A DNA stretch of 64,000 bases, taken from Phycisphaerales bacterium. Lineage in GTDB: Bacteria > Planctomycetota > Phycisphaerae > Phycisphaerales > UBA1924. The stretch is from assembly GCA_020427635.1 (NCBI GenBank), contig JAGQOH010000005.1, forward strand, positions 1 through 64,000, read 5' to 3'. Position numbers and translations under genes: made by a program. The notes under the pieces were generated by a model. That model was given only the letters and a program-made list of their open reading frames with translations, was not told the DNA's origin and made no database searches. Shown in pieces: positions 198-38,858 of this stretch (its first letter is position 1; each line of letters begins with the position of its first letter).

Positions 198-279
198 GCG
201 GGCGTGGCGAAACTGGCAGACGCGCGGGATTTAGGTTCCCGTCTCTTCGGAGGTGCAGGTTCAAGTCCTGTCGCCCGCA
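198..279 (+). tRNA. tRNA-Leu, anticodon UAG
   Basis: A complete class II (long variable arm) tRNA can be folded by eye. The acceptor strands GCGGGCG (198-204) and CGCCCGC (272-278) pair over seven bases, the anticodon stem CGGGA/TCCCG encloses the loop TTTAGGT with anticodon TAG, a long variable arm follows, and the T-loop is TTCAAGT. Long variable arms are expected of tRNA-Leu, and UAG reads CUA-type leucine codons. The 3' CCA is not encoded: the discriminator A at 279 is followed by C-T-G, so CCA must be added enzymatically. It stands alone, not in a tRNA cluster. Confidence 0.95.
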
Positions 280-280
280 C

Positions 281-7247: not shown

Positions 7248-8087
7248 CTAGGCGGCGCGACGACGCGCGGCGCCCACGCGACGAGCCGAGCTCGTGCGAC
7301 GCGCCTTCGAGAAGCTGTACGAACCCGAGCGCTTGGCGCCAGAGCGCTTCGGAGCGCTGCGCTTGGCGGCAGTCTTACGTGCCACGGGCTTGTTCGCATA
7401 CTTCTTGGTGTAGCTCTTCCGAGCGGTCGACTTGCGGGCCACGCGACGAGCCGTCGAGCGCTTGGCGCCGGCGTTCTTCTTCACCGTGCTCTTCTTCGCG
7501 TAGCTCTTGCGCGCCACGGGCTTCCGAGCGGCAGTCTTGCGAGCGGTGGTCTTGCGTGCCGTAGTCTTGCGAGCAACGCGACGGGCGGTCGAGCGCTTCA
7601 CACCGCTGCTCTTCTTCGCGTAGCTCTTGCGTGCGACCGGCTTGCGTGCGTTCGTCTTCCGAGCAACGGGCTTCCGCGCGGTGGTCTTGCGTGCCGTCGT
7701 TGTGCGGCGACGAGCGGGCTTCCGGGCCGTGGTGCGCTTGGCGCCGGTGCTCTTCTTTGCATAGCTCTTCCGAGCGACGGGCTTGCGAGCAGCGCTCTTG
7801 CGTGCCGTGGTCTTCCGGGCAGCCGTCTTGCGTGTGACCGGCTTCTTGGCGGTGCTCTTCTTCGCAGAGGTCTTGCGAGCCGCGGTCTTCCGAGCGGTCG
7901 TCTTGCGTGCCGTGGTCTTCCGTGCGGTGCTCTTCCGAGCGGTGGTCTTCTTGGGGCTGTTCGACTTCCGAGCAGTCGACTTCTTGGCCGTCGTCTTGCG
8001 ATGAGCCTTGCGCGACGTGGTGCGGCGCGAGGCGGGCTTGCTCGAGCGTTTGGTGGTGCTCGTGCGTCGGGTACGTGTGGCAGGCAT
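7248..8087 (-). CDS. Histone H1-like Lys/Ala/Arg repeat DNA-binding protein
   Basis: 279-residue, extremely basic, low-complexity protein starting MPATRTRRTSTTKRSSK. Nearly the whole length is a degenerate five-residue repeat of the type TARK(T/S), interspersed with a longer unit containing ARKSYAKKS that recurs about five times. Acidic residues are almost absent. Such composition resembles the C-terminal tail of eukaryotic H1 and bacterial H1-like proteins (Hc1/Hc2, BpH1, AlgP), which compact DNA. The frame continues upstream to 8282, but that part is not repeat-like, so the ATG at 8087 is used. The long antisense and +1 frames over this gene are artefacts of the repeat. A strong terminator follows at 7182-7217. 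Confidence 0.88.
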   Translation of the reverse strand: MPATRTRRTSTTKRSSKPASRRTTSRKAHRKTTAKKSTARKSNSPKKTTARKSTARKTTARKTTARKTAARKTSAKKSTAKKPVTRKTAARKTTARKSAARKPVARKSYAKKSTGAKRTTARKPARRRTTTARKTTARKPVARKTNARKPVARKSYAKKSSGVKRSTARRVARKTTARKTTARKTAARKPVARKSYAKKSTVKKNAGAKRSTARRVARKSTARKSYTKKYANKPVARKTAAKRSAPKRSGAKRSGSYSFSKARRTSSARRVGAARRRAA

Positions 8088-8434
8088 GTCCTGGCTCCGT
8101 GTTGAGCGGCCGCCCCCGCAGGGTCCCGGCCGTCTGAGTTCCCTGTCCTGGCGAAGCACGGCCAAATCCGTGATCGCCCGAGACGCGCCTCCTTGCGTGC
8201 AACACAACGGAGCGCAACATCTCCCTTTTCCGGGATTGCCTATCGTCCCCGCTGTGTTAGAACGTGAACAAATGTGCGCCAATCCGTGATTATCGGCGCG
8301 ACGGTCTCAACTTGGTGCGACTTGCGTTGGCGCTTCGCCCAACCGATGGCAGAGTGTCAGCAGCGAGAGCATGCCGCCCACAGGTATCGCGCTGCAGTAC
8401 GATGTCTTGTGTTTTCCGCGTTTGGAGGCCACCA
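8088..8434. other. Divergent intergenic region between the H1-like gene and DAHP synthase
   Basis: About 350 bases that must hold promoters for both divergent genes. The ten-base word AATCCGTGAT occurs twice (near 8164 and 8281), but I cannot assign a factor to it. No strong hairpin, small ORF or clear -35/-10 pair was found. Confidence 0.4.
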
Positions 8435-31515: not shown

Positions 31516-31542
31516 TTGGTTGCTCCCCTACACTTTCAGGTC

Positions 31543-32448
31543 ATGTCGCCAGCCACAACCCCTATCGACCCAACGCTCGGGCCACCTGCATCCGTTCGCA
31601 CCGTTCGCCTCGGCGCGGTGCGCTATCTGAACACGGTGCCCCTCATTGCGGGGCTCGAAAAGGCCATTGGTCTTGAGATTCGTTTGGAGGCCCCCGCCCG
31701 CCTCATCGAACTGCTCGCCCCGATCCAGCCGGGCCAAGCCCCGCAAGTAGACCTCGCCCTCTGCTCGATCATCGACTATCAGCGCTCGGCTGTCCCGCTC
31801 GAGATCGCGCCCGTGGGCGTGATCGCCTGCGATGGCCCGACGCGCACCGTGCGCGTCTTCTCCCGCGTTCCGTTGGAGCAGGTCACGGTGTTGCACGCCG
31901 ACGTCGAATCACACACGTCAGTCGCGCTCGCGTCCGTTGTCTTCGCCGAGCAGTTCGGCAGGCGGCTTGCCATCAAACCCTTCGCTCATGTTGATCGTCC
32001 GCACGATGCCTGGCCAGACGCTGTGCTGCTCATTGGCGACAAGACGATCACACATGCGCCACCCAAGTCTTCGCATCCGTATACGCTTGACCTGTCAACC
32101 GCCTGGCGCGCGATCACTGGTCTGCCATTCGTCTATGCCGCATGGATGTGTCGCGCAGGCGAGTTCGACGCGCGCCCCGAACTGCGCACCATGGCCAGTT
32201 TGCTCGATCGCCAGCGTCGGCGCAATTGCGTGCGCGTCGGTTGGAGCGCCGCTCAAAGTGCCGCGACCCACGGTTGGACACCCGATGCCGCCCAGGACTA
32301 TGTCGCCAATGAGTTGCGCTACAACATGGACGGCGAGGCGCGGCAAGCAGTCGGGCGGTTCTTCGAGTGCGCCGCCAACGCTGGCGCTATCGCGCAAGTC
32401 AAGCCCATCCACTGGGCTGGCGAAGCAGAGCTTGGCAACGCCACGTAG
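31543..32448 (+). CDS. mqnA: Chorismate dehydratase (futalosine pathway)
   Basis: 301-residue MqnA, which dehydrates chorismate to 3-enolpyruvyl-benzoate in the futalosine route to menaquinone. The core starts VRLGAVRYLNTVPLIAGLE and continues with VDLALCSIIDYQRS, LLIGDKTITH and LPFVYAAWMCR, all family-typical. The ATG at 31543 has a weak AGG site; a TTG at 31516 is possible. The next gene starts 9 bases after the stop. The polyprenyl synthase at 60235 could supply the side chain. Confidence 0.88.
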   Translation: MSPATTPIDPTLGPPASVRTVRLGAVRYLNTVPLIAGLEKAIGLEIRLEAPARLIELLAPIQPGQAPQVDLALCSIIDYQRSAVPLEIAPVGVIACDGPTRTVRVFSRVPLEQVTVLHADVESHTSVALASVVFAEQFGRRLAIKPFAHVDRPHDAWPDAVLLIGDKTITHAPPKSSHPYTLDLSTAWRAITGLPFVYAAWMCRAGEFDARPELRTMASLLDRQRRRNCVRVGWSAAQSAATHGWTPDAAQDYVANELRYNMDGEARQAVGRFFECAANAGAIAQVKPIHWAGEAELGNAT

Positions 32449-32457
32449 TTCGCCATC

Positions 32458-34107
32458 ATGCCGCGTCTGTCCGCCATCCACTGCGAACCTCTGCAAGCGC
32501 TGCTTGATCAGCAGCGCTTCACGCCACGTGACACACTCTTGCGCGACATTGCCCGTGCTGAGCAACTCGCTTCGGAGATCCGGCCCGAAGTCGAATACCC
32601 GGAAGATTGGATCGCCTATCGGATCACGGCCTATCGCCCAGATCTCGATGCGCCGGCGCTGGTGCCCGGGCGGGCACTGCTGAGCGACCTGAGTGCGCTC
32701 GTTGAGCACCTGTGCGAGGCGGCACAATTGTGCGCGGACGACTTGCCCGTTGATGCCTTCTCCATCGAGTCGCTCGCATCCCGTTGGCGTGTCGCGCGCA
32801 AAACAATCGAGCGCTACCGCAGACGCGGGCTGGTGGCTCGCCGCTGGCGAGATCCCGCGGGGCTGGCGCGTCTCGCCTTTGCACCGAACGTTGTTGCCGC
32901 CTTTGAGCGCACCCATCAGTCACTCCTGCAGCGAGCCGGTGCGTTTTCGCGCATTGATGACCAAGAGGCGGACGCACTTGCGCAATCGGCTGCTCGCGCA
33001 CTGGCGGCCGCCCCGAATGCCACAATGACCGGGCTCGTCGACACCCTTGCACAACAGTCAGGACGATCAGCACCCGCAGTGCGCCGTGTGCTGGATGAGA
33101 CGGGGCCATCGATTCCAGGCGTCACGGCACCGAAGCGCGGCGCTCCGCATCTCTCGCGCGGCATCGAACGGAGGATCGCCCGCGCCGTCGCTTTCGGGAT
33201 TCGTCCGGGCCTCATTGCAGAGCGCTATGGCTGCACACGCCTGACCGTGCATCGAGTTGCAGTGCGCGAGCAGGCGCGCCAGCTCAAACGCCTTTGCGCA
33301 ACATTGCCCTCAGGTGACGATGGGCTCGACGTCGACGTGCTGGACCACCCGATAGTCGCCCATGCCCCGCCCATTTCACCCATCCTTGATCCCAGACAGC
33401 TTGCAGACGCGGTCGCGACCGATCCACCTGCCGATGCACCGGAAGAGCGAGCACTCATGACGGGGCATCGGGCATTGCTCGAGCGGGCGGCAGCCGTGGG
33501 GCATGGGATCGATCCGGCGCGGCCAAACCAGCGCTTGTGTGATCGTGCCCTTACAGACCTTCGCTGGGCGCTGCGACTCCGGGCCCGCGCGATTGAGATG
33601 CAGCGCAGTCTGATTCTGCGCACCATCGAATCGCGCACCGGGCTATCCTGGCATCACCTCGCCTCTGCCGCAGCAGTGCAGTTGCACCTTGTTGCCACGC
33701 GGGCCGCCACCGACGCCATCGCTCGATTCGATCCGCGCCGCGGCGGGCGCTTGGCAGCCCCGGTGTCCATCGCCGCGAACCGCGCCCTGGCCGGCATCGT
33801 CCAAGAGTTGACACTCGCACGTCCGCTCCGCTCGGCTCAACAGCGGTTTGTGCTGGCCAGCCCGCTTGACCACCTCGCGTCATGGCAATCGTCCGTCGAG
33901 CCGCACCGCCACCTGCCGGACATCATCGGATGCCTGCAGGACACTGATGCCGCGCTGCTGGCGATGCGCTACGCCCTCCCCCCCGCGGCCGCGCCAATCC
34001 ATCCGAGGACCATCACCGAGGTTGCACAGACCTTTGGCGTGACACCGGCGCGCATCATTGGGGCCGAGCGCCGTGCGCGTCGGGCCATTCGCACCCGTCT
34101 CGCGTGA
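32458..34107 (+). CDS. Divergent sigma-70-like protein with extra helix-turn-helix segments
   Basis: 549-residue protein without a clear named family. Residues 101-130 (FSIESLASRWRVARKTIERY and onward) form a helix-turn-helix; 187-213 and 240-275 (GIRPGLIAERYGCTRLTVHR) look like two more. Residues 410-450 contain AIARFDPRRGGRLAAPVSIA and NRALAGIVQE, the layout of sigma region 2 (RFDP.RG..F...). Residues 498-549 (ALLAMRYAL ... ITEVAQTFGVTPARIIGAE) match region 4.2. I infer a transcription factor related to sigma-70 proteins. It lacks the usual region 2.4 Tyr/Trp pattern, so promoter melting is doubtful. It sits between mqnA (9 bases upstream) and trkH. Confidence 0.6.
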   Translation: MPRLSAIHCEPLQALLDQQRFTPRDTLLRDIARAEQLASEIRPEVEYPEDWIAYRITAYRPDLDAPALVPGRALLSDLSALVEHLCEAAQLCADDLPVDAFSIESLASRWRVARKTIERYRRRGLVARRWRDPAGLARLAFAPNVVAAFERTHQSLLQRAGAFSRIDDQEADALAQSAARALAAAPNATMTGLVDTLAQQSGRSAPAVRRVLDETGPSIPGVTAPKRGAPHLSRGIERRIARAVAFGIRPGLIAERYGCTRLTVHRVAVREQARQLKRLCATLPSGDDGLDVDVLDHPIVAHAPPISPILDPRQLADAVATDPPADAPEERALMTGHRALLERAAAVGHGIDPARPNQRLCDRALTDLRWALRLRARAIEMQRSLILRTIESRTGLSWHHLASAAAVQLHLVATRAATDAIARFDPRRGGRLAAPVSIAANRALAGIVQELTLARPLRSAQQRFVLASPLDHLASWQSSVEPHRHLPDIIGCLQDTDAALLAMRYALPPAAAPIHPRTITEVAQTFGVTPARIIGAERRARRAIRTRLA

Positions 34108-34135: not shown

Positions 34136-35932
34136 GTGGTAGACGCCAGTGTCCGCTTCCGATCGGTGCGCACGCCGCTCCGCTTCCAGCACATCCGCGG
34201 CCTGCTTGCGCTCCTGATGCTCGCCCCGACGCTGTTGCACATTGGCTGGCACGAACCGATCTTGCCACCGACCGTGCTCTGGGCGATCCAGCTTGGGATG
34301 CTTGGCGCCTATACCGTGCTGTTCGCGTTGGACGTCCACCGCGTGCGAGCCATGCCCGCGACCCATCGGACAGACTTGGTCAGCATCTTGCGCCCGGAGT
34401 TCATCGCGATTGCACTCTCGTTGCTGTTTTGCTGGTCTTGGATCGGACTGGCGATCATGTCGGCGCCGCTCGCCCTGATCTTTGCCGTGCGATCGTTCCT
34501 GCGCCTTGCGCAGTCGCGGATTCCCTCAGGCCTGATCTTCGTTGGGTCATTTGTCGTACTCACGATTGCGGGCACCGCTTTGCTCATGCTGCCCGCCGCC
34601 GCACCCAAAGGCGCTCCGATAGGTGTGCTCGACGCCGCCTTCACAATCACCAGCGCGGTAAGCCAAACCGGGCTGGTCGTGCGCCCGACAGGTGTCGTCG
34701 TCGATACCGCAGGCGCACCGATCGCGGGGTTTACGCGATTGGGGCAGATCATCATCTTGGTGTGGATCCAAGTTGGCGCGCTGGGCGTGCTCGTGTTCGG
34801 CGCCCTCGTGGCCAGCCTTGTTGGCAGCGGCTTTGGTCTTCGTGCCACGCAAACACTCGCAGAAGGCACCGAGCAAGGCTGGGAAGGTCAGCTCTCCGCA
34901 CAGCGCCTCGTCACCTTCGTCATCCTTGCGACCCACATCATCGAACTCATCGGCGCCGTATTCATCTACTTCACATGGCCCAAGGAGTGGGCCGGCATGC
35001 CGCACGACTTCGCCAGCGTGGGTGATCGGGCGTACCACGCGGTTTTCATGTCCGTAAGCGCGTTCTGCAACGCGGGATTCTCCACCACGACCGACAGCAT
35101 GGCGTCGCTGCGCACCCATGTCATGCCGCACGCCATCATCTTCCCGCTCATCATCTTTGGTTCGATTGGCTATGCCGTCCTGGAAAACGTGTGGCGCGTG
35201 CTCGTCGCAAAGGCTAGGCGTCGGCGTACTGAGGGCGGCGTGCTCGTGCGCCTTTCATTGCACTCGAAGCTCGTCATGACCTCCGCCCTGATCGTGTATC
35301 TCCTGGGCGTTGTCATCATCATGATTGGTGAAGCGGTGCAGACGGACGAGCCTTGGCGGCTCATCGTGCTCGACGCCCACTTCATGTCCATCAATCGCAC
35401 AACCGGGTTCAACACGATCGACGTGAACGCAATGGGGGGCCTGTCGCGCCTGGCTCTGATCTTCCTGATGTTCGTCGGTGCGGCGCCGGGTTCGGTTGCA
35501 TCGGGTGTCAAACTGATCGTTGTTAGTGTCCTCGCGCTGACCGTCTGGGGCACCATCCGAGGCCGTGAACAGACCACCGCCTTTGGGCGCACGATTCCAG
35601 AAGACATCGTGCGCAAATGCGCTGCGCTCGCGATCGCCTGCCTGCTCGTCGTGCTGGGTTCGACTGCCGGGCTCGTGCTCACGGAAGAGAACAACACGGC
35701 GCTCTCACCTTCGCTCGAGGTGTTGCTCTTTGAATCAACCAGCGCCTTTGGCAACACCGGGCTATCCATGGGCATCACCGACAAGCTCACGGTCGCAGGC
35801 AAGATCAACATCATCATCACCATGTTCGTGGGGCGCGTGGGTGTTTTTGCCACGCTGGCGGCATTGGCCTCGGTTGGTGCTCGCCGACGTCCCCGCATCG
35901 AATACCCAGGCGAACGTGTCTCGATTTACTAG
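34136..35932 (+). CDS. trkH: Potassium uptake channel subunit TrkH/KtrB
   Basis: 598-residue membrane protein with about ten or more helices. Four selectivity-filter loops are visible: SAVSQTGLVV, SAFCNAGFSTT, INRTTGFNTID and SAFGNTGLSMG, the four-fold pseudo-symmetric K+ filter of the SKT superfamily. It forms the translocating pore gated by TrkA. The frame opens at a TTG (34058) overlapping the sigma-like gene; the GTG at 34136 gives a non-overlapping start but has only a poor ribosome site, so the start is uncertain. trkA follows 59 bases later. Confidence 0.92.
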   Translation: MVDASVRFRSVRTPLRFQHIRGLLALLMLAPTLLHIGWHEPILPPTVLWAIQLGMLGAYTVLFALDVHRVRAMPATHRTDLVSILRPEFIAIALSLLFCWSWIGLAIMSAPLALIFAVRSFLRLAQSRIPSGLIFVGSFVVLTIAGTALLMLPAAAPKGAPIGVLDAAFTITSAVSQTGLVVRPTGVVVDTAGAPIAGFTRLGQIIILVWIQVGALGVLVFGALVASLVGSGFGLRATQTLAEGTEQGWEGQLSAQRLVTFVILATHIIELIGAVFIYFTWPKEWAGMPHDFASVGDRAYHAVFMSVSAFCNAGFSTTTDSMASLRTHVMPHAIIFPLIIFGSIGYAVLENVWRVLVAKARRRRTEGGVLVRLSLHSKLVMTSALIVYLLGVVIIMIGEAVQTDEPWRLIVLDAHFMSINRTTGFNTIDVNAMGGLSRLALIFLMFVGAAPGSVASGVKLIVVSVLALTVWGTIRGREQTTAFGRTIPEDIVRKCAALAIACLLVVLGSTAGLVLTEENNTALSPSLEVLLFESTSAFGNTGLSMGITDKLTVAGKINIIITMFVGRVGVFATLAALASVGARRRPRIEYPGERVSIY

Positions 35933-35991: not shown

Positions 35992-36675
35992 ATGGATCGA
36001 TTCGCGGTTATCGGGCTTGGTCGGTTTGGGGCGCGCTTGGCGCGGAATCTTGCGTCTGCTGGCGCGGAGGTCATTGCCGTCGACAGAGACCGCACCGTGG
36101 TCGAAGAATTGCGCGACCAGGTCACCCTCGCCGTCGCGCTCGACGCCACCGACGAACAAGCACTGCGGCTTCAGGGCGTCGACCAAGTCGACTGTGCCGT
36201 GGTCGGCATTGGGACCAATTTCGAGGCCAACGCCCTGGCAACCGTGGTCTTAAAAAGCCTGCGGGTCGAGCGGGTCATTTCCCGGGCAGGCAACGCAATG
36301 CAGGCCAAAATCCTCTCCCGCATCGGCGCCGATTCGGTGGTGAGCCCGGAAGACGAGTCCGCCGACCGGTGGAGCCACCGCCTGCTTTCGCCCTTCATGA
36401 TCGACCATGTGGAGTTGGGCGAGGGCTACGCCCTGGTGCAAATGGCCACACCCGCAGAGTGGCGCCAGAAGACCCTCGCCGAGCTCGACCTCCGTCGGCG
36501 TTTCAATGTCACGGTCGTCGCGATCAAGCGGCCCATCGAGTCGTCGGCGCCCTCCGGAGTCGACACCCTAGGAAGCCGTGTGGTCGACCTGCCCATGCCC
36601 GCATCGCGCCTGAGTGAAGGCGACACCTTGATCCTGGCGGGCTTCGATCGGGACCTTGAGCGCCTGCCCACCTGA
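35992..36675 (+). CDS. trkA: Potassium uptake regulatory subunit TrkA/KtrA
   Basis: 227-residue cytosolic RCK protein. FAVIGLGRFGARLARNL (about 4-20) is the NAD-binding Rossmann motif and VIAVDRD the acidic strand end. The C-terminal ~75 residues form a TrkA-C (RCK-C) domain (ELDLRRRFNVTVVAIKR ... GDTLILAG). It forms the gating ring of TrkH and senses nucleotides. Single-RCK length matches KtrA rather than the double-length E. coli TrkA. Confidence 0.92.
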   Translation: MDRFAVIGLGRFGARLARNLASAGAEVIAVDRDRTVVEELRDQVTLAVALDATDEQALRLQGVDQVDCAVVGIGTNFEANALATVVLKSLRVERVISRAGNAMQAKILSRIGADSVVSPEDESADRWSHRLLSPFMIDHVELGEGYALVQMATPAEWRQKTLAELDLRRRFNVTVVAIKRPIESSAPSGVDTLGSRVVDLPMPASRLSEGDTLILAGFDRDLERLPT

Positions 36676-38438: not shown

Positions 38439-38858
38439 ATGAAGAAGATTTATGTCGGGAACTTGCCGTTCTCTATGAACGACGGCGAGCTCCGGGACCT
38501 GTTTGCGGCCCATGGCAACGTCATGTCCGCGTCTGTGGTGATGGATCGTGAAACCGGGCGTTCACGCGGCTTCGGTTTTGTGGAAATGGATGACGCTGAA
38601 GCGGACAACGCTATCAATGCGTTGAACGGCTCCGTGTTCAGTGGTCGTGACCTCCGTGTCAACGAAGCGCGCCCGCGCGAGGATCGTCCGCGTGGCGGCG
38701 GTGGCTATGGCGGCGGCGGTCGCGGTGGGTACGGCGGCGGCGGCGGTGGTGGCTATGGTGGCGGCGGCGGGGGGCGCGGCGGCTACGCCGGCTCGCGCGG
38801 CGGCGACCGTGGCGGCCGCGGTGGCGACCGTGGTGGTCGGCGCGACGACGCCTGGTAA
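38439..38858 (+). CDS. Glycine-rich RRM RNA-binding protein
   Basis: 139-residue protein: one RNA-recognition motif with RNP2 IYVGNLPF (about 4-11) and RNP1 RGFGFVEM (about 43-50), then a Gly/Arg/Tyr-rich tail (about 84-139) made of GGYGGGG and RGG units. Cyanobacterial and planctomycete relatives are cold-inducible RNA chaperones. The RGG-rich tail may promote RNA binding or condensate formation, an inference. The tail DNA is a low-complexity GGC/GGT repeat. Confidence 0.92.
   Translation: MKKIYVGNLPFSMNDGELRDLFAAHGNVMSASVVMDRETGRSRGFGFVEMDDAEADNAINALNGSVFSGRDLRVNEARPREDRPRGGGGYGGGGRGGYGGGGGGGYGGGGGGRGGYAGSRGGDRGGRGGDRGGRRDDAW

Follow-up and report, generated by a model that had tools for sequence, protein, structure and literature searches.

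On one strand, the window (the whole 64,000-nucleotide stretch of the Phycisphaerales bacterium contig JAGQOH010000005.1 that was analysed) carries mqnA, an open reading frame for a sigma-like protein, trkH and trkA, in that order (Table 1). The earlier note had placed the sigma-like gene between mqnA and K+ uptake genes, and Pfam assignments confirmed mqnA upstream and trkH and trkA downstream. K+ uptake genes adjoin the ortholog in 10 loci, and because they are common to only part of the window's family they say little about function. Elsewhere in the window, a tRNA-Leu at 198-280 (+) was the sole RNA gene found. An ORF of 344 aa at 7248-8282 (-) has many ARKTTARKPVARK-type repeats, visible as tandem repeats at 7431-7953, and a histone H1-like basic tail, and 38439-38858 (+) encodes an RNA-recognition-motif protein with a glycine-rich repeat tail.

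Table 1. Genes and protein segments at the locus, in window coordinates.
Feature	Description	Residues	Position	Strand
mqnA	VitK2_biosynth by Pfam; ends 9 bp upstream of the sigma-like gene		31516..32448	+
Sigma-like gene	Complete ORF (549 aa) for an eroded protein of sigma-70 type with an N-terminal array of HTH units		32458..34107	+
N-terminal domain	No Pfam family; conserved in all orthologs	1-96	32458..32745	+
HTH1	MerR/HTH_17-like winged HTH	101-152	32758..32913	+
HTH2	Three-helix unit	168-215	32959..33102	+
HTH3	Three-helix unit, resolvase/HTH_23-like	234-280	33157..33297	+
Region 1.2	Counterpart of sigma 1.2 and of the helices preceding region 2	327-381	33436..33600	+
Region 2	Eroded sigma region 2	383-447	33604..33798	+
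RFDPRRGG	Motif	423-430	33724-33747	+
Linker segment	Counterpart of the DWTRRVxPWQxxLEP motif	466-482	33853..33903	+
Region 4	Partly eroded sigma region 4; 4.2 HTH at about 518-545	485-546	33910..34095	+
trkH	By Pfam; start uncertain; longest ORF reaches back into the end of the sigma-like gene		34142..35932	+
trkA	By Pfam		35992..36675	+

Three HTH-like segments had been proposed for the N-terminal half from its sequence, and the predicted structure places all three in the first 280 residues. The AlphaFold2 model built with 49 orthologs (pLDDT 92.5) has three HTH units in residues 101-280, followed by an all-helical C-terminal half. HTH1 is modelled as helices at 103-110 and 114-121 with a beta wing at 128-141, and its R119, R121, G124 and L125 are invariant across the 49 orthologs. 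It is basic and has the highest conservation within the window's family (mean pairwise identity 0.54); HTH2 of the window protein, with a net charge of -2, is not basic. HTH1 shares its wing and a K-T-I-x-R-Y-R-R-x-G-L type motif with MerR/HTH_17 regulators. It differs from them in being fused to a sigma-derived half, in having no effector-binding domain that we could see, and in scoring under the Pfam cut-offs in the window protein, where the matches to MerR (14.5 bits against a cut-off of 21.6) and to resolvase HTH are weak. Relatives gave weak-to-moderate Pfam matches to MerR, HTH_17 and HTH_23, HTH_17 exceeding its cut-off in orthologs L038 and L046. The preceding N-terminal domain contains a consensus ITGYRP motif, which reads ITAYRP in the window protein.

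The sigma character of the C-terminal half is less easily recognized. The RFDPRRGG motif was found where it had been reported, as was a region 4.2-like HTH, covered by a Pfam Sigma70_r4 match at residues 490-545 (E 2.9e-5) whose 23.9 bits fall marginally under the cut-off of 24.1; a genus sister passes it. Comparison of the eroded relatives with own-genome RpoD by hhalign also recovered region 4 (E 2.5e-5). Region 2 was undetectable in the single sequence of the window protein, and on the ECF model TIGR02937 this protein scored 14.8 bits against a cut-off of 42.9. A profile of the window protein with 43 eroded relatives nevertheless aligned to the canonical family across regions 1.2, 2 and 4 with an E-value of 8e-23.

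A Foldseek search with the full-length model gave weak matches (best E 3e-3). We therefore folded the C-terminal half again from eroded sequences alone, using residues 301-549 and 43 other eroded sequences and excluding canonical members of the order (family f5), family f6 and all members outside the order. The resulting AlphaFold2 model was confident (pLDDT 92, pTM 0.89) and had 43 matches in the PDB at E <= 0.001, the best 50 listed all being sigma factors. TM-scores were low, 0.30-0.44 by query, because domain placement differs. According to these models the sigma fold is retained and the signature residues are not. Structure prediction and profile comparison, both proposed in the earlier note, thus found similarity to sigma regions 2 and 4, and neither a fold lacking that similarity nor a whole-length match to an unrelated family turned up when looked for. 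Both this predicted fold and the presence of canonical regions 2 and 4 in orthologs that occupy the same mqnA-linked position support the sigma-derived origin suggested there.

A profile search across planctomycetes, likewise proposed earlier, found relatives throughout the class and full-length ones in Planctomycetaceae. Profile matches occurred in 150/150 sampled genomes of the window's class, nearly all of them full length, and 60 of 61 relatives had one full-length match per genome. Beyond the class, full-length matches were found in group f48 and a few further groups. When named genomes were scanned with the N-terminal half, the best 80 of 381 relatives were Planctomycetota by title, apart from one labelled just "bacterium"; they included many Planctomycetaceae, such as Thalassoglobus neptunius, and one locus that matched the f48 query L085 at 100% identity. 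A chance resemblance is ruled out by the profile comparison and by conservation across the class. As for a phage origin, viral contigs contained no relatives by the search patterns used. Judged by sequence, this is a phylum-level planctomycete family, and the majority of its members are still canonical sigma factors. In this respect the earlier note needs correction, since the window protein is not a one-off. We found no paper describing the family or its erosion in the literature covered, which included few subscription journals.

The window protein has the family architecture of N-terminal domain, three HTH units and sigma half, in single copy. In the canonical state, seen outside the order and in f5 inside it, the sigma half has regions 1.2, 2.1-2.3 and 4 and no region 3, region 2 being joined to region 4 in the alignment by no more than a short linker. 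A profile of canonical members retrieved RpoD, SigA and RpoS structures from the PDB with E-values down to 1e-53, and canonical members L083 and L085 pass the Pfam cut-offs for Sigma70_r2 and r4 by a wide margin. A variant of 380 aa occurs in other planctomycetes (G318:C154:24626-25663 and G253:C93:33318-34376). It matches the N-terminal domain (6-96) and then the sigma part (~319-538) with no match separating the two, as though it lacked the three HTH units.

In the window's family (f1, 36 members examined) the loss of sigma features is, as far as region scores and signature residues tell, concentrated in region 2, and in f6 it extends to region 4. Region models were trained solely on the 34 members outside the order, so that outside scores carry a training bias that the others, including those of the five held-out f5 members, do not. 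Region 2 scored 118 bits outside, 83 in f5, 5 in f1, 12 in f4, 14 in f6 and -1 in f2; for region 4 the values were 93, 61, 23 (mean), 20, -1 and 13 in the same order. The drop was far smaller for the N-terminal domain (117, 88, 65, 86, 75 and 44 bits) and for HTH1 (91, 60, 44, 42, 38 and 37 bits), as it was for HTH2; HTH3 also drifts, with 29 bits in f1 against 66 in f5. Mean identity of region 2 fell from 0.63 outside to 0.34 in f1, and its signature is lost in f1 as well as in three neighbouring families. The f6 orthologs L041, L045, L047, L048 and L049 have 484-503 aa and end before region 4, the f6 protein being shorter by about 50-60 aa.

At the level of single residues (window numbering), region 2.3 F432 is present in 34/34 members outside the order, 5/5 of f5 and 1/36 of f1, Y435 in 33/34, 5/5 and 0/36, and W438 in 26/34, 5/5 and 0/36. 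Two of the 36 f1 members keep the G of region 2.2 and none the N. In region 4.2, Q535 is found in 33/34 outside members, 4/5 of f5 and 0/36 of f1, and R534 in 2/36 of f1; the window protein has I and G at the R and Q positions. Its melting segment reads RLAAPVSIAANRA, against KFSTYATWWIRQA in RpoD of the same genome. The suggestion that this protein perhaps no longer melts promoters gains support from the loss of the 2.3/2.2 signature in 36/36 f1 members, scattered single residues aside.

Two other sigma factors of the genome are not affected in this way. Besides RpoD (605 aa), Sigma70_r2 being found at 22 loci, it encodes a short canonical paralog of the same sigma subfamily (391 aa; L194:1274-2449, G000 C72) that has no N-terminal half. 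Because RpoD and this paralog stay canonical in the same genome, base composition is not the cause of the erosion, and GC-driven drift was ruled out. Similar short forms of about 350-450 aa were found across the order. These may provide the sigma function, but both the short paralog and the long canonical form are present in f5 genomes.

In 41 of 50 loci of the order, including 5/5 canonical f5 loci, mqnA is the immediate upstream neighbour on the same strand. This locus, common to f5 and the eroded families, supports orthology. Together with a tree of the N-terminal half, it also makes it unlikely that eroded and canonical forms are paralogs. In that tree, computed from 285 N-terminal columns with the sigma part left out, the order is grouped at 98/99 and f6 branches first, followed by canonical f5 and then by f4, f3, f2 and f1. 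Such branching needs two changes. However, a single loss was not rejected (AU test p 0.207), and we do not firmly claim two independent losses, even though the tree prefers f6 apart from f1-f4.

Purifying selection continues on the eroded protein. Pairwise NG86 estimates of dN/dS, which at the high synonymous divergence here indicate constraint and not its exact strength, were 0.14-0.43 across both halves. Among close relatives with an eroded region 2, the range was 0.14-0.37 for the whole protein and 0.14-0.27 for its C-terminal part. These values and the intact reading frames rule out a pseudogene. Besides losing residues, f1 has acquired, in the stretch separating region 2 from region 4, a DWTRRVxPWQxxLEP motif that canonical members do not have. 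Its W at window residue 476 is present in 34/36 f1 members, and the window protein retains the central WQ and the EP, not DWTRR.

Compared with known systems, the family has regions 1.2, 2 and 4 in the same order as sigma-70 group 1/2 factors (RpoD, RpoS, SigA, SigB), and canonical members match the NCBIfam RpoD, RpoS and SigB models, below their cut-offs. It differs from group 1/2 in having no region 3 between regions 2 and 4 and an N-terminal extension of about 300 residues that contains the three HTH units, and in the window's lineage also in lacking the melting and recognition residues. The former groups ECF87-ECF89, as described in PMC8103513, are the nearest published case that we found, similar planctomycete factors with sigma 2 and sigma 4, no sigma 3 and an N-terminal extension; they are characterized there as experimentally unstudied and their extensions as uncharacterised. 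Region 2 of our family resembles RpoD/RpoS and not the ECF models. In line with this distinction, canonical members score higher on RpoD/RpoS/SigB-type models than on TIGR02937, with f5 L042 about equal on both. MzaA, the sigma-type protein of the MZA anti-phage system, is the top NCBIfam match of canonical L083, L085 and L060 over regions 2 and 4, with 165-174 bits in L085 and L060, far below the cut-off of 800. The window protein had no MzaA match, and a defence system was discarded as a candidate, PADLOC matches on this protein being trivial. In alphaproteobacteria, PhyR acts as a sigma mimic on NepR (PMC4598750), and it would resemble our protein in having a sigma-like domain that is not used for promoter recognition. 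The window protein differs in belonging to another phylum and in having three HTH units in place of a receiver domain, for which no Pfam match was obtained.

The family membership, orthology, selective erosion and purifying selection established here, with the predicted fold, are in our opinion best explained by conversion of a sigma factor into a regulator that binds DNA and has given up promoter melting, a reading to which we give a probability of roughly 60%. The ancestor would have been a planctomycete sigma-70-type factor with an N-terminal domain and three HTH units before regions 1.2, 2 and 4. In the lineage of the window protein, the residues for -10 opening (region 2.3), the region 2.2 core-binding signature and most region 4.2 residues for -35 recognition are gone, whereas the predicted fold is kept. 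DNA would then be recognized by the MerR-like winged HTH together with HTH2 and HTH3, and the sigma-derived half, including the newly conserved Trp-rich linker, may serve as a structural or protein-interaction module. Most likely, then, the protein is unable to melt promoters, binds DNA through its HTH array and has a regulatory role. Some contact with RNA polymerase is possible, given the retained fold and the residual region 4 score of f1. The drift of HTH3 and the non-basic HTH2 of the window protein also weigh against this reading.

It could be argued that the protein is still a working sigma factor, whose diverged region 2 opens unusual promoters and whose HTH units are a built-in upstream activator. 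The fold predicted from eroded sequences alone, the persistence of the FDPxRGG segment and a partial region 4, and the identical architecture of canonical orthologs would all suit such a factor. We regard it as unlikely, since practically none of the 36 f1 members retains the melting residues F/T/Y/W or the 2.2 signature, f6 has lost region 4 too, and the locus has no Sigma70_r2 match in a genome where 22 other loci do. To a similar degree we doubt that the sigma-derived half, much as PhyR does with NepR, binds an anti-sigma factor or RNA polymerase and so frees, or competes with, an active sigma factor, perhaps the short paralog. A kept fold stripped of function residues, the new conserved linker motif and the detection of a canonical short paralog of the same subfamily across the order are consistent with this role. 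It would leave the HTH array unexplained, however, and no receiver domain (Pfam) and no anti-sigma gene among the annotated neighbours were seen; f6, moreover, has kept the N-terminal half without region 4.

Somewhat less probable again is that function lies in the N-terminal HTH half alone, with the C-terminal half in slow decay. The absence of region 4 from f6 and the low scores of region 2 point in that direction, as does HTH1 being the most conserved part of f1, but slow decay is at odds with the low C-terminal dN/dS, the confident fold and the conservation of the new Trp motif. Conversion into a DNA-binding regulator is thus the reading we retain. That it happened order-wide at a fixed locus, possibly twice, leaving a sigma fold without sigma activity, with canonical f5 still extant beside the end states, one with an eroded region 2 and the other, f6, without region 4, we consider an even bet.

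Few bacterial proteins are as strongly constrained as sigma factors, and to our knowledge sigma factors kept after losing sigma activity are rare, PhyR being the standard example. Here, a protein that is probably of this kind has been retained, one copy per genome, throughout an order, and canonical orthologs persist at the same locus in a sister family, making the order of losses and the gained function testable. The analysis also brings to light a phylum-level sigma subfamily with built-in DNA-binding domains, of which general family models say only "sigma-70". If our reading is true, the family would make it possible to read how a polymerase subunit became a transcription factor.
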